From positions 310,001 to 374,000 of the forward strand of contig JAODTK010004588.1 of assembly GCA_026419785.1 (NCBI GenBank): DNA of 64,000 nucleotides, read 5' to 3'. This DNA comes from Sclerodactyla briareus (taxonomy: Eukaryota > Echinodermata > Holothuroidea > Dendrochirotida > Sclerodactylidae). A program made the position numbers and the translations under genes. How positions within the stretch are numbered: the stretch's first letter is position 1; the number at the start of each line of letters is the position of its first letter. Of this stretch, positions 18,833 to 63,826 are shown in pieces. The notes under the pieces are model-generated. The model did not search any database, was not told the DNA's origin, and worked only from the letters and a program-made list of their open reading frames with translations.

Positions 18833-20929
18833 GGAAAGGGTCTGTCTATGGGCAGAGGAATACCTCTAAAAATTAGTGGTATGGTAGGAAGTGACGGCCA
18901 CGATGGAGAATTGTAATGAATAAACATTGAACAGTTTATTGTCACTTTTAGTGTTGCCATAAGGGCCCGGGACTTTTCCGGCTTCCTCAATCTGGGGGTC
19001 TGTGAACCGATATTTTTTTTCTTGCATGCTACGTGCCAACCTATAGTGTGCGCTAGGCTGGACGGTACTAACCAACCCACAATCCGTCCTCCCTACCGTA
19101 CCCCAAATTTTGAACAAATCGCCGTCCCCAATATTGACGACGATGTCGCAGTTTTAGCAAATCAGTGCAGGTATTATGGATTTCAAATCACGGACAAGTC
19201 TGGGACATGTAGGCCTAGGTATGGGCTGTGAGGGACAAATGTAACTTGCGATATGAAGGGCAAGTATGGAATGAATGAAAGGGAGTGCATGGTAGATATG
19301 ATTCCTTATAGATCGACTCATCGAATATGTATTACATTTCCCTAGATTGATTAATTTATCATTAAATTAGAATTTGCAGACATGAGATACAGATGTTACG
19401 TTAGTCGGGGGGGGTTTTCACCCCTTTCCGCCATCCGGGTAGCCGTTGGGTTGCAAAGATGGAGGGCGCACGGCCCCCAATCAGGAGTTTCGAGGAATTG
19501 ATCCTCCAACTATCTTGCTGTGTTCAGTTTCCCCGCAGTAGGAATAATGTATTCCTTTAGTTCCCAAGATAAGACGTCAATGAAATAGACTCGCACACAC
19601 AAAAGGTCCAGTGGGTTTCCCTTTGATTTTCTTTTTAATTCTTCTTCTTGATTAAACGTGATTCTTACAAAAAAAATCTGGAGGGCCGGACTCTAACGTT
19701 AGAGGCCTATGATTCACACTTATTAACTAATTAAACAAACCAACAACATTAATAATTATATTTAATTCTAGTGTAAAATTCACACCTATCTCTTATCCTT
19801 AATTTAGAGAGTCAGTGTGGGTACCAAATACAGTAACCTGAATGGTCAATAACTGGACAGGGTTTTAAACGACGAGAGAATACTTCGGAGGGGCAACCCA
19901 AAACATTCTAATAATTTGAATAATTCACACCTACGTTAAACTGTACCATATCAAATAAAGTACCTGGGCAATTCTAAAAGACTAAAAAAAGGAATCGACC
20001 TATCGATAAAGGGGAGCAGCCCTACCTATCAACATGAGAATGGGCTAGATGATGAAAGTTGAATTGACTCGCATCAAAAAAAACATTGTTTTAAACTAGG
20101 ACAAAGATGACACTCTTTACGAGAATACTATCATATGAAGAGCATTAAATTCTGAATAAGAGGGAGATCCTAGTAAAGTCATAACCTAATCTGATAAGAG
20201 TAGCTGAATAGAAAGAGTTGAACTAGTACAGAATCAACAGATAACGAGTAAAAACACACAATCAAATATGCATAGGGGCGGTTCCTAGTGATTGGTAACT
20301 ACCATATCATTACCAAGGGGGGTGCATCGATCTACTACACGACCAATATTCGGACGGTTGAATGCAGCTCCAAAACACCAGCAAGCGCATTTTCCGGCCA
20401 TCTGAAGGTATAAAATCCAAAATTTTAAATACGCTTAGACGCCAGGCCAATGTGCGCTCGCTTAGATAATGTTTCGTACCAGTTATCACCAAAGCCTGAA
20501 CCAAATCTACGCCACTGCCCAAAAACCAAACAGCATCTTATGGGTTCAGTGTTAGTGTCCCCCAAGCTATGGAACTCCAATTCCGCGCATATTCGCAATT
20601 CGGAGACTCGGGGGGCCAGCGTAGAATGAAGACGCATTCTTTTCATGCTCCGATTTTTAGGTATTTTTTCCCGTTTCCTGTCAAGTATATTGTAACAATC
20701 GTATAAATCCAGAAACTCCAACGGGTCCAACATTACGCTGCCATCCGTTATACTCAAACTGTCGCTTATTGTAACACGTTGTTATGGTCTGACCATTCAT
20801 CAAAAACATCTCAATATTCAAGCGGGGGTTCTCTACCAGTGGAGTAGTTGGCCGCTTCCAATATTGGAAGCGAAACTACAATCGGACAAGACATCTAATG
20901 TACTTCCATGTCGTCTTGTTATATTCCAG
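18833..20929. other. Intergenic, nothing firmly recognised
   Basis: AT-rich, with no supported gene. A minus-strand frame at 20425-20757 (110 codons) is unusually clean but resembles nothing I know and overlaps a second frame at 20310-20522 that shares its sequence. No flanking exon was found. Confidence 0.4.
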
Positions 20930-21064
20930 CAGGCCTGCATGGACAGCTTTATCACTACTTTCCAAGTTCATTTCTTTGCTTCACTATTGGCAGGACTGGG
21001 TATCGCAGTTTCCCTTCAACTAATGTTCCCTAGGAGGGGCAAGTGTCATACATGCAGTGTACAT
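20930..21064 (+). CDS. Possible membrane-protein exon (tetraspanin TM4-like), unconfirmed
   Basis: A pyrimidine-rich TTGTTATATTCCAG acceptor precedes an open block reading QACMDSFITTFQ followed by a long hydrophobic run (FFASLLAGLGIAVSLQLM). A Cys a few residues before a final transmembrane helix with a GxGIA core is the pattern of the last tetraspanin membrane segment. The CCG motif and the other three membrane segments are not visible nearby, and the reading stays open only to 21124. The right boundary is not decided by a good donor. It could equally be chance or a fragment of another multipass protein. Confidence 0.22.
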
Positions 21065-21314
21065 CGCTCATCGTGTCCATTTTGCTCTTGTATCATGTAC
21101 GACATACAACTGTCTTGGGTATAGCACTGAACTTCATACAAGCAGGTATGGAAGCAGGCCTTTCTGGGTTTTGGAGCAATTTGGGCAGCCGCTGCTTCAC
21201 GTTAAATGACTTGGTTAGTATCACCTGCTGTCAGACGACTGGCGAGCTCGGTGGTCACAGTTCATGACTTGCACTGATTCCAGACAACTGGATCAGTTGG
21301 CCATGTCACTACTT

Positions 21315-22507
21315 CCAGCCAACCAACTAAATCCGTTGGTCACATTTCATGGAATTCACTGCTTCCAGACAAATGGATCAGTTGGTCACAGTTCACTATT
21401 CCCAGCCAACCAACTAAATCCGTTGGTCACATTTCATGGAATTCACTGCTTCCAGACAAATGGATCAGTTGGTCACAGTTCACTATTCCCAGCCAACCAA
21501 CTAAATCCGTTGGTCACATTTCATGGAATTCACTGCTTCCAGACAAATGGATCAGTTGGTCACAGTTCACTATTCCCAGCCAACCAACTAAATCCGTTGG
21601 TCACATTTCATGGAATTCACTGCTTCCAGACAAATGGATCAGTTGGTCACAGTTCACTATTCCCAGCCAACCAACTAAATCCGTTGGTCACATTTCATGG
21701 AATTCACTGCTTCCAGACAAATGGATCAGTTGGTCACAGTTCACTATTCCCAGCCAACCAACTAAATCCGTTGGTCACATTTCATGGAATTCACTGCTTC
21801 CAGACAAATGGATCAGTTGGTCACAGTTCACTATTCCCAGCCAACCAACTAAATCCGTTGGTCACATTTCATGGAATTCACTGCTTCCAGACAAATGGAT
21901 CAGTTGGTCACAGTTCACTATTCCCAGCCAACCAACTAAATCCGTTGGTCACATTTCATGGAATTCACTGCTTCCAGACAAATGGATCAGTTGGTCACAG
22001 TTCACTATTCCCAGCCAACCAACTAAATCCGTTGGTCACATTTCATGGAATTCACTGCTTCCAGACAAATGGATCAGTTGGTCACAGTTCACTATTCCCA
22101 GCCAACCAACTAAATCCGTTGGTCACATTTCATGGAATTCACTGCTTCCAGACAAATGGATCAGTTGGTCACAGTTCACTATTCCCAGCCAACCAACTAA
22201 ATCCGTTGGTCACATTTCATGGAATTCACTGCTTCCAGACAAATGGATCAGTTGGTCACAGTTCACTATTCCCAGCCAACCAACTAAATCCGTTGGTCAC
22301 ATTTCATGGAATTCACTGCTTCCAGACAAATGGATCAGTTGGTCACAGTTCACTATTCCCAGCCAACCAACTAAATCCGTTGGTCACATTTCATGGAATT
22401 CACTGCTTCCAGACAAATGGATCAGTTGGTCACAGTTCACTATTCCCAGCCAACCAACTAAATCCGTTGGTCACATTTCATGGAATTCACTGCTTCCAGA
22501 CAAATGG
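21315..22507 (+). repeat. 87-bp tandem array, 13.7 near-perfect copies
   Basis: The 87-bp unit repeats with no visible change from the second copy to the end; only the first copy differs slightly at its left edge. Each unit is an old dimer: two arms of about 46 and 41 bp that both start GTTGGTCACA(T/G)TTCA. A diverged monomer series leads into the array at about 21190-21314 (GGTGGTCACAGTTCATGAC, CAGACAACTGGATCAG). Because 87 is divisible by 3, one frame is open for 422 codons from 21264, but the 29-residue repeat resembles no known domain. Each unit has one GAATTC. Confidence 0.97.
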
Positions 22508-24524
22508 CAATTTCACAGTGAGCTGCAGTTAGTTATCTCCTGTGGCTCAGGTGAATAACAGGATCATAATACCTTCACTGGACAAGAAGAAACAATGTTG
22601 AAAACAAATAATAAATTATACTTCTTGTTTATTCTATCATCTCTGTAAGGAGCGAAGTACCATTTTTCATATTAATTCCCCATAAAACCACTGTCACTGT
22701 ATCATCAGTCCTGAGGATGTAAATGACTGCACCGCCTGCAAAATGTATATCTCCAGATCGTTTCTCAGGGGAGAGAAAATGAAAAAACTGCACGATACAA
22801 AGGGCATTACTATCAAGCAGTTTATGAAAATGGACAGTGAATTGCTCTTTGTAGTGCTGCGGAAGTCAAAATAGCTAAACTTTCGCCCATTTCACGATGG
22901 GAGCTATCCACAGTCTGATCTGGTGGGCCATCGAACGTTTGTAGAATCGAACCAATCAAGGGACTATCCAGGAACCAGGGTTCACTCTGCTCTAACTGCT
23001 CTCCTGTCAACTGGTATTATGTAATGAAAGGCCATCTATTGTGCTTTTGCTAGTTTATTGGCTATTGACTTTCATGCGAGTACTACGGCTTGCCTCCATC
23101 AAGAGGTGATTGATCTGAAATGAATAGAAAATGAAATGTGTTGTCTTTCATTGAACGCCAAGGAAAATGCTGAACGGTCAAAACAATTCCATGGATTTGC
23201 TTGACTAACACTGCTGCAGCACAGTCCCATGGCTTTTCTCTTCAATGCACAATATGTTTATGTTTATGTGTTATTTATGTGCTCTATTATGTCTGCTCAC
23301 CATTGTCCCATGGCATGGCAACCATTTACAGTGAACAGTTGCACCCACTCCATGTTGCTCCCCCCCCCCCCCACCCCCTTATTTGATTTTTGTGTTGACT
23401 GTTATGGCAATTGGTTCATGTTTTGGAATTTCATAACAATGTGGAACAGCTCCCTACATTATGACATGCTCAGCCATAGCCATGTCTGATGGTCAGCTCG
23501 ATTAGGCCAGACAAACAGAGCACCAGACTCCAGAACAATCGCTTGTGAGTTCAAAACTGATTACTTCATCATGTATGTTCAGTTGAAGTATATAAGTCAG
23601 TTGCACAATGTGCAGTATTATGCTAATTGCTCACTAAATAGTTTGTTTTCTGTTAAGAACTTTTTACCACTACAATAGATAAGTTTGATGCTTTAAAACA
23701 GTAGGTTGCGTACCAAAATGTGTGTTGGGTGAACCTGTACATAGAACAGGATACCCCCTACAGTGTAGGATTCACTCCCGATACAACATGCTATGAATGT
23801 CATCTCATTATCACTTCTCCTAGATTGATAATCTTGGAAGTAGCTTTGAGGCCCCTCTGAAAGTAAGATATAGGCAGATATGGATAAACACTGATAAGGA
23901 CCAACAACTGCCTCAAATCACTGACTGCTGAAGGAATTCTGCCCCAGAAAAGAGAACCGATCTAGTAAGCGAGTCCTCACAGCTTTACAGCAACCATCCA
24001 ATGAGAATAAGGGGAATATGGCAGAAATAGAATGACATGGAAGAAATTCAATGATATATGATAGAGTGTATCATGTGGTGCAGGAAACAGTTAGGGAACA
24101 TAGGTGGGCTTCAGACTGCTGGGTGATGGTGATAGAGAATTTATGTCATTAGCTTCCAATAAAGAGACATGTTCTGATGGTGACAGTCACACATGACAAT
24201 CAACATCTAAACGAACAGTCACAGGGACTGATGTAGGGGCCCGCCACTCCTAGCTCTGATTTGTACACAAAATTACACTTCCTTTGACAGCACTGATTAC
24301 AGATCATGTGAAACATTTCCTGTTGGGGTCACCATGCAAATGATCCATCACTAACAGGCAACTAAACACCCCATAATTTCAGCCATATTGTAACACGTGG
24401 AATGACGTGGCACTGCAGCCATTATTCCTAGTTATAGGGATACGGCGTTGTGCCCTTCCTTCTGCCGATGCAGAGCTCCTATGCAGTACCCATACAACGC
24501 AGTCACAAAATCAATCAGTTGTTC
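22508..24524. other. Intergenic, nothing firmly recognised
   Basis: Contains a 13-nt C-run at 23360-23372, a weak tRNA-like patch at 23490-23560 and a fragment near 23740-23770 that ends CCCCCTACAGTGTAGGAT like the family K repeats. No gene is supported. Confidence 0.4.
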
Positions 24525-54408: not shown

Positions 54409-54565
54409 AGAGTGAACTTGCGATGGGGCGAACTTGTAGTGGGCGAACTTGTGATGGCACGAACTTGCATATGGGGCGAATGTGTTTGGGGCGAACTTGC
54501 ATATGGGGCGAACTTGTAGTGAAATGGGGCGAACTTGTAGTGGGGCGAAATTGAAATGGGGTGAA
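54409..54565 (+). repeat. GGGGCGAACTTGTAGT minisatellite
   Basis: About nine imperfect copies of a 16-22-bp unit with the constant core GGGGCGAACTTG and variable linkers (TAGT, CATAT, TGATGG). The inverse motif pair is at 48626-48672. Confidence 0.9.
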
Positions 54566-61600: not shown

Positions 61601-63826
61601 ATGAAGCTCATATTTATTAGGCAGGTTCCCCATAATGAGTACTTGGCCGTATTCTTTGAAGTCAGGTCAAAGGTCTTCTGAGGTCAACAGAGTTTCAGTC
61701 TTAAAACCTCATTAACATGATAAGTCACATATATATACTTGGCCCAATCAAGATGAAATTTGGTATGCAGCTTACTTATGGCTAGTACAAGAACCCTATT
61801 CAGATTGGCATTATTTCAGTGAAACATTAGAAAATTATGAAAAATTGATATTCTCACCAATTCCGGCTTCATTGGATTGTGAACAAGCAAACTCCACCCT
61901 GCTTGAAGGGCTCAGGCTTGTATGTGGAATCTCTATAGTCATGGACCCTTCTTTTGTGGTATCAGGTCATCTGAGGTCAACGCGGTCAGAGTATAGTAAC
62001 CTGTGGAAAAGAGTCACACAACAAGTCTACAAAGCTCAGTAGGTGTCAAGGAATCACCAAGCCTTTTTGCATCTGGTTCTTCCAAATAATTTTCCTCAGT
62101 GACAAAAGACATCTCTAAAAAGAGGGGTATATAAAATGTCCAAAATCAATTCCCCCTCCCCAAGGGCCCTCCATTGGAATGCGGGATTTGATGAAGAAAT
62201 GTATATTTCATACCCATATCACTTGCCAGGTGGATAGGTCTAATCATGATAGTTGTTTTCAATCTATACTAATAAAAAAATACTTCTACTTTGCTAAGGG
62301 GTACTGGGGGGGGTGAAATAGTGGAGGAGTATCCTACTATTGTACTATGGTCATGTAGTAATAAAACATGTCCCATGTCAAAATGTCCCTATTCTTGGAT
62401 AACTTCCTATTATGATCAAGAATTTTTCATTTGATAGATCCTCTACAGGGTTTCTATTGTTTACAATGTTGGAGGACTTGGCAGAGGTTTAGCTGCGGGC
62501 GGAATGGGTTAGAAAGAACATCCAGTGCAACTGGAACAAAGCCTGTAGGCATCGCTAGTCAAACCGAGGGGTTACAAATTGAGGCATATTAAACTGACCA
62601 ACCCCAGGGCTGCACCTGTGCTTACACTAGTGGGCATGTAATTATTAGTTTTTGAAAGTTCATCTTCTTTTTTTTCAGGGGACGAGGCTGGGCAAACTTG
62701 TGAACAACATCCGTAAAGCTGCCAGTGACTCCAAACTCAAGGACCCCGGTGCAAGCGCCTGATCCAGAAGTGGAAGGATGAGTTTGTTGTCAAGCAGAAA
62801 GCGGCTGACAGCAGCAGCAATGCGACCTCTGTTGGACAGTCCAAGGGTAAACCACCCACTAGGCCAGTAGTCCTCGGGTCTCTCCACACCTCAGCAAGAG
62901 TGGAGGGACCCCGTAGATGAAACAAAATCTGAGAACCGCAAACGGAGGAAGCCGGATAGCCCTACGATACCCGCAGAGGAAACAAGGCCTTCCAAGAAAC
63001 AGTCCACTGCTGGGGCTTCCTCCAGGGGAACAGGAATAACAAGGGTATCGGCAGGATAGCCCCAGGCCTAAACCAAGCCCTGGGGAGCAGGATGGCTCCT
63101 CTCCTAAACCACAAACTAGAGGTCCTGGGAGACTCGTAAGTTAAAGTCAAGCAAAATTCCTAATGCTAACAAGGATTCTAAATCATTACACAAACAGGTT
63201 CTCAAATCAAATGCAACCAAAGTAGTCGGAGCAACAGGCCTGAGCGAGGAGCAATCGCCTCTGGCGAAGGTAAAATCCAGGTCTCCCAAGCGAGGGCAGC
63301 ATAAGCGGAATGGGAGCGCAGGTCTACCGCCGAGTAGTGATTGTGCAGATGGATCAGAAGGTGGGGATGCAGCTGATGATGAACTTCCTTACAATGATGC
63401 ATCTTGCAGCCCTGTAGCTGCAGCAATAAATAATGTGGGAGAGGAGAGTTCAATATTCAATATAGAGGAGGAGCACACCGAGGGGGGTAGTGACGACCTT
63501 GCAATGTCTTCCGTGCCGGACAGTCCAGCTGATTCCGCTGGCTCCCATGACAGCAAGCTCCTCATCCCTTTCTAGACAGTGTGACAAGCTCCCCAGAGAG
63601 GGCACCGAGGAGCCTTCGACCATGCTGAGGATAGATTGGCTGACCTCAAGGATTCTAGGGTAATAACCGAGGACGACGTCAGGAGGTTACATCAAGAAAA
63701 CTGGGAGTCGGTGAATGGTAATTACAGTAACAATGGCTCCTGGAGAACCTGGGATGCCTGCTTGGTGAGAGAGATTATGGCGAAAACCACTCTCTACATA
63801 TACTGCCATACGTGGTCATCGATTGA
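55586..63826 (+). CDS. MED26: Mediator complex subunit MED26 (three exons, frame disrupted as sequenced)
   Basis: MED26 is an animal Mediator subunit in the nucleus. Its N-terminal TFIIS-N (LW) domain docks elongation factors (ELL/EAF super elongation complex) and TFIID, and its C-terminal domain attaches it to core Mediator. Exons at 55586-55648, 60550-60628 and 62679-63826 give, in order, MTSSPAQIRELLLKSID, VLKAI-x-ALEE, TRLGKLVNNIRK, KRLIQKWKDEF, a long Ser/Lys-rich linker with KRRKP, and the C-terminal WESVNGN...SWRTWDAC...SLHILPYVVID. Human MED26 has closely matching blocks at both ends. The whole would be about 430 residues against 600 in human, mainly a shorter linker. An in-frame TAA lies in exon 2 and about eight frame changes affect exon 3. 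Introns and splice sites are retained. Sequencing error and a duplicated pseudogene are the two explanations; I favour error for the indels. Confidence 0.9.
56035..56046. promoter_or_regulatory. NRF1-like site in intron 1
   Basis: ACGCATGCGCAG matches the palindromic NRF1 consensus (GCGCATGCGC) at all but the first position. It lies 390 bp inside the first intron, close enough to act with the promoter. Binding is inferred only. Confidence 0.45.
58001..58120. repeat. Foldback with telomere-like TAGGG motifs
   Basis: GTAGAGAGGGGTTAGGG on the left and, inverted, GTAGAGATTAGGGGTAGGG on the right, about 70 bp apart. Such ends are typical of small palindromic elements; two TTAGGG units are too few to call an interstitial telomere. 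Confidence 0.65.
60137..60355 (+). repeat. Two ~110-bp tandem units in intron 1
   Basis: Unit one: TTAACCCTCTCCCACAGTTG, ATATCAGATCTGATTTGGTC, GGGGCAG, GCCAAGAGGGTGC. Unit two: TTAACCCACTCTCATAGTCG, ATATCAGATCTATTTTGGTC, GGGGCAG, ACCAAGAAGGTGCC. It ends about 200 bp before exon 2. Confidence 0.8.
60550..60628 (+). CDS. MED26: MED26 exon 2
   Basis: Phase-0 acceptor CTCTCCTAG and donor GAAAGTAAGT, ending with one base of a split codon. It encodes VVDTDGVLKAI-stop-ALEEDDYN then QQRALE, matching human VLEVISSLEKY... at the LW domain. The TAA at 60583-60585 sits where the family has Ser. It needs a base substitution to be explained, unlike the frame changes in exon 3. Confidence 0.88.
60629..62678 (+). 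other. MED26 intron 2 (2.05 kb)
   Basis: GTAAGTTG ... CTTTTTTTTCAG. About half is the AGGTCA-repeat element (61130-62090). Confidence 0.85.
61130..62090 (+). repeat. AGGTCA-repeat family (family I) in intron 2
   Basis: Several diverged sub-units, each with a TGGATGGATGTAGCTCAT-type block, a GGTTC...ATAATGAG-type block and a pair such as AGGTCACAGAGGTCAG, AGGTCAAAGGTTATATGAGG, AGGTCAAAGGTC and AGGTCATCTGAGGTCAAC. The element ends GTCAAGGAATCACCAAGCC, also seen inverted at 10.8 and 45.0 kb. Confidence 0.75.
62679..63826 (+). CDS. MED26: MED26 exon 3 (linker and C-terminal domain)
   Basis: The acceptor is a T-run ending CAG. It encodes the second half of the LW domain (TRLGKLVNNIRK, KRLIQKWKDEFVVKQ), a low-complexity linker (e.g. 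SSSNATSVGQSKGKPP, SPKRGQHKRNGS, DELPYNDASCSPV, SSVPDSPADSAG) and the conserved C-terminus ending LPYVVID and TGA at 63824-63826. Frame changes occur at the acceptor (one extra G), near 62752, near 62880, near 63055, near 63135, near 63572, near 63610 and near 63765. Each is a one-base event by eye and several fall in short runs. The human middle motif RPRDYTVNLDG was not found. Confidence 0.88.

Follow-up and report, generated by a model that had tools for sequence, protein, structure and literature searches.

A probable single-locus, non-coding minisatellite of identical 87-bp units with a diverged dimer at its 5′ edge

The tandem array described here is in our judgment, with a probability of roughly 0.78, a single-locus, non-coding and recently expanded minisatellite, situated about 41 kb from a stretch coding for the Med26_C domain. 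It is found in a window of 64,000 nucleotides (the whole stretch of DNA which was analyzed, C2467:310001-374000 of a contig of 524,286 bases). The assembly that we searched comprises 319 Mb in 3171 contigs. As a minisatellite the array is an ordinary kind of locus and it is possibly a VNTR. The coordinates of the array and of the neighboring features are compiled in Table 1.

Table 1. Features of the window, in positions of the window
Feature	Position	Strand	Basis
Dispersed short repeat of ~133 bp, 5′ of the array and separate from it	20760..20892	.	similarity search
Weaker resemblance to the unit, with many gaps	21190..21248	.	31 of 48 columns for 21180-21238
Older diverged dimer A′B′, collinear with the unit	21249..21311	.	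63 bp aligned end to end
Open reading frame of 422 codons (ATG 21264, stop 22530-22532), product of the 87-bp period, judged non-coding	21264..22532	+	frame reading
Full 87-bp units, n = 13, all identical	21315..22445	.	alignment, lag match
First 62 bp of a 14th unit, without differences; abrupt 3′ edge	22446..22507	.	
Med26_C-coding stretch	63654-63770		profile match, 27.4 bits (cut-off 25)

Structure of the array and its lead-in

The earlier note had described a near-identical array of 87-bp units. From position 21315 to 22507 we find thirteen full copies and one partial copy of 62 bp without a single mismatch over 1193 bp. A wraparound alignment to the 87-bp unit matches at 1193 of 1193 positions, and when the array is compared with itself at a lag of 87 the exact run amounts to 1106 bp. 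TRF, applied to the window, gives a period of 87 and 14.5 copies from 21252 to 22507, because it takes in the diverged lead-in as well. The GC skew is steady across the array (about -0.23 to -0.28), as is expected of any uniform array.

Aligned to itself, the unit shows a gap-free block at lag 46, and overall 32 of the 45 aligned columns are identical. By this alignment each unit is an old dimer of 46+41 bp, here termed A-B, just as had been proposed. The lead-in (21190-21314) also resembles the unit far above chance: the score of 94 was reached by none of 500 mononucleotide shuffles, the largest of which scored 38. In this respect the claim of diverged lead-in monomers holds, but the final 63 bp are one collinear dimer A′B′ and not unordered monomers. 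Compared with A-B this older dimer has 55 matches, 7 substitutions and four one-base indels (one inserted, three deleted). In local alignments A′ scores 42 with A and 26 with B, and B′ scores 44 with B and 26 with A. Since each half of the lead-in dimer is nearest to its own counterpart in the unit, the dimer predates the divergence of the lead-in copy. The weaker similarity further upstream (21190-21248) possibly represents an older monomer. The lead-in also contains a short palindromic core.

The similarity of the flanking sequences to the unit was evaluated in the same manner against 500 shuffles. On the 3′ side (22508-22600) it is at shuffle level, with 289 shuffles reaching the score; on the 5′ side it is at chance level for 21081-21190 (247 shuffles) and marginal for 20961-21081 (17 shuffles).

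Occurrence of the unit in the assembly

The earlier note had asked for a genome-wide search of the unit. Our similarity search of the 319-Mb assembly gave 15 matches, namely 14 in the array, the last of which extends 12 bases beyond the array edge, and one in the lead-in. A search with a 50-base pattern of the unit, allowing up to three mismatches, returned 14 matches, all of them exact and all within the array, while the reversed control pattern gave none. Within the sensitivity of these searches the 87-bp unit thus appears to be confined to a single locus. The similarity search skips common words and can miss diverged copies; a query with the lead-in listed only itself, though the related array directly adjoins it. 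The search is therefore insensitive to copies diverged to this degree and distant relatives may exist elsewhere.

For the right flank, the first kilobase has no match in the assembly except itself. In the search with the left flank all scored places were filled by the locus itself and by a dispersed repeat (20760-20892), and single-copy status is seen for the right flank only. Among the 40 places scored for this repeat, itself included, out of 215 first-look candidates, there are 39 other copies with 79-89% identity. On its 5′ side the array is separated from this repeat by about 420 bp, and this neighborhood together with the limited sensitivity of the search could speak for the array being part of a transposon or of a dispersed satellite family. 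We consider this very unlikely, as neither similarity nor pattern revealed a further copy of the unit and the right flank occurs only here; for the left flank the comparison is masked by the dispersed repeat.

The open reading frame

A frame of 422 codons which is kept open by the array had been pointed out before and is indeed present, starting with an ATG located within the lead-in (Table 1). Measured from stop to stop this frame has 437 codons, and a second frame of the forward strand is open for 426 codons. With a unit length divisible by 3 and an ATG-started frame the array could be viewed as a coding exon for a protein with a 29-residue repeat, the idea raised in the earlier note. Two of the six frames are open across the array, compared with a mean of 1.49 of six for 1688 87-mers of the window treated as units, and 46% of these 87-mers would keep at least two frames open if repeated. 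The number of open frames is near expectation and the 422-codon frame is therefore uninformative. In addition, the frame is not conserved between the diverged units: the 63-bp dimer of the lead-in has four one-base indels relative to the unit, and its bases are offset from their homologs in the array by 1, 2, 1, 2 and 0 modulo 3. All three frames are thus represented, so that none has been kept between the two diverged dimers.

A scan of 13.0-28.0 kb in six frames, array included, yielded no Pfam domain at an E value of 0.01. DUF2835, DUF1419 and Peptidase_A3B obtained Pfam scores above the cut-off on two open reading frames; no single stretch passed alone, and we rejected these candidates as sums of weak repeated matches. 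The copies are identical, hence they offer nothing for a comparison at codon level. We judge from these sequence features that the array and its long frame are non-coding, and consider the repeat-protein idea extremely unlikely.

Sequence motifs and folding

The motif TGGTCACAGTTCA is present in every full unit and in the older lead-in dimer, which amounts to 14 sites in 1.2 kb. DR1-type nuclear-receptor elements have the consensus RGKTCANRGKTCA, from which the motif differs by one mismatch. With at most one mismatch the window contains 25 DR1-like matches, where 5.47 are expected and none of 100 shuffles reaches 25. Fourteen of the 25 belong to array and lead-in units that share descent and are not independent. 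On the basis of this motif the array could be seen as a homotypic cluster of putative binding sites whose copy number would tune a neighboring gene and whose uniformity would be maintained by selection or biased conversion. We hold this to be extremely unlikely; given the many known motifs, a DR1-like 13-mer might arise by chance in any short repeated unit, and no cellular function need be assumed for the array.

No structured RNA was matched in Rfam at the gathering score, and a tRNA search of the window with ARAGORN was negative. Folded as DNA, the forward strand of the unit has a z score of -3.05 (one of 200 shuffles as good) and the reverse strand a z score of -1.04 (25 of 200). A hairpin of the unit might help slippage, and we have left it out of the evidence.

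Comparison with other arrays of the contig

As a comparison sample we used 264 kb of the same contig, consisting of the window and 20 stretches of 10 kb; the sample contains no N and is not a random sample of the genome. TRF lists 96 partly overlapping rows in it, several of which are large minisatellites: 64 bp × 17 (96% match), 107 bp × 4.8 (94%), 43 bp × 4.9 (98%) and 53 bp × 3 (100%). For periods from 8 to 500 the longest exact tandem self-match is the 1106 bp of our array, and the next best in the 264 kb is 177 bp. Five other arrays, selected manually among the 40 longest rows of the TRF list, were aligned to their own units. One of them is perfect (159 bp) and two contain substitutions only, so that three arrays of 159-516 bp are without indels. 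The other two carry both: in L041 (64-bp unit, 1079 bp aligned) there are 21 substitutions besides 8 indel bases, and in L024 (328-bp unit, 983 bp aligned) there are 9 of each. Arrays of this type are thus common in the sample, but the degree of uniformity is exceptional there. As the identity exceeds that of every other sampled array, turnover has been unusually recent at this locus or the assembly has contributed.

Two of the other arrays deserve a short description. In the large 64 bp × 17 minisatellite of L041 (4937-6015; C2467:194937-196015) variants are mixed between the copies and several copies have one-base deletions. Within the window, positions 54414-54565 form an imperfect array of ~16 bp × 9 which contains a perfect 21-bp near-double (54503-54542).

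A possible contribution of the assembly

The real array might be shorter or more varied than assembled, its uniformity or copy number being a product of read correction, polishing or gap filling. The demand of the earlier note that an artefact be excluded is sound. We consider such an artefact rather unlikely, although several observations are in its favor. The indels in two of the five comparison arrays have already been mentioned. Furthermore, at two loci the frame changes between abutting actin matches, three times in total, and at one further locus it changes once between overlapping HSP70 matches, as residual indel errors would predict. These changes, at G000:C1260:170309-170820, C2792:267460-267940 and C2424:94846-95132, were counted from match pairs that adjoin or overlap along the profile of their family. 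If there were 2-5 errors per kilobase, the Poisson probability of finding none in 1193 bp would be 0.09-0.003. Wrong tandem copy numbers in assemblies have also been described (PMC6868369), though the examples considered here mostly have too few copies.

On the other hand, the unit has no homopolymer of at least four bases (0 per kb compared with 19.9 per kb elsewhere in the window), so that fewer errors are expected in the array; only 18% of 2152 87-mers of the window are equally free of such runs. The 264 kb of contig contain no N, three of the five comparison arrays are likewise devoid of indels, and the indel-diverged lead-in as well as the abrupt edge toward non-repeat sequence suit a real array. 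The frame changes in actin and HSP70 may be due to pseudogenes or introns, and other matches to both families are unbroken, e.g., actin at C2792:242651-243052 over profile positions 264-410. Read correction across copies could nevertheless raise the apparent likeness of the units, and copy number and perfect identity are conditional on the assembled sequence being correct.

The Med26_C stretch of the window

The earlier note had set the strict identity of the array against an indel-laden MED26 exon in the same window. The Med26_C match (Table 1) is the only one found in the assembly, and the two best matches of this stretch in the PDB are MED26 chains (E values of 0.003-0.004); by these matches the C-terminal part of MED26 is real. 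They place the window in a eukaryote and, from what is known of Mediator, probably in an animal; a search for COX1 gave no match. We could not confirm the many indels: the reading frames around this stretch seem to switch, which may reflect introns or sequence errors and is suggestive only. The N-terminal family of MED26 gave no match, an uninformative result as the control was matched in none of 14 genomes. PDB searches for an N-terminal part gave no Mediator match.

Origin of the array and its relation to known repeats

The structure of the locus and the order of events, i.e., a dimer, then two diverged dimers and finally the amplification of one of them, can be read from the alignments. A monomer of 40-odd bp was duplicated and diverged to give the dimer A-B. 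This dimer was then duplicated itself, with the second dimer A′B′ diverging at the 5′ edge, and late in this history one A-B dimer was amplified or homogenized to 13.7 identical copies. The two steps proposed before, dimerization followed by recent expansion or homogenization, are retained in this scheme; what they lacked is the middle step, the duplication of the dimer before the lead-in diverged. We infer that repeated events of unequal exchange, gene conversion or replication slippage between units generated the uniform copies, with an amplification so recent, or a homogenization so continual, that no mutation is visible. The edge copy A′B′, which is diverged, would have been spared from homogenization. 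If there were no homogenization, zero changes in 1193 bp would bound the age of the array at ~8×10^5 generations, for an assumed, unmeasured rate of 3×10^-9 per site per generation.

Higher-order repeats of satellites are multimers of diverged monomers which are amplified as one homogeneous unit. The array is built alike, as a multimer of diverged monomers that appears to have been amplified homogeneously, but these higher-order repeats make up a large centromeric family whereas the array is one locus of about 1.2 kb.

Minisatellite and VNTR patterns span seven to several hundred base pairs, and their copy number changes by unequal exchange, gene conversion and slippage (PMC8096271). The array, with 87 bp × 13.7, falls within this range and resembles the loci described there in unit size, in its tandem layout at a discrete locus rather than in a dispersed family (diverged copies can escape the search) and in a right flank found nowhere else. 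It differs in an exact identity longer than that of the other local arrays, and its copy number is that of one assembly. The amphioxus minisatellites called "mirages" (PMC3087553) have a homogenized center from which the edge units are excluded, and our array is similar in its homogenized inner units and its spared edge unit. Unlike the array, where no exon is recognized, the mirages span exon-intron boundaries; the six-frame Pfam scan of 13.0-28.0 kb would miss exons without a Pfam domain.

The locus carries a warning for gene finders, since a stop-free unit with a length that is a multiple of 3 produces a long open frame without meaning. It is also well suited for testing if an assembler preserves or erases the differences between tandem copies. 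With its uniform array and its diverged edge copy it is likely to be a variable marker locus, and we predict that the copy number differs between individuals.
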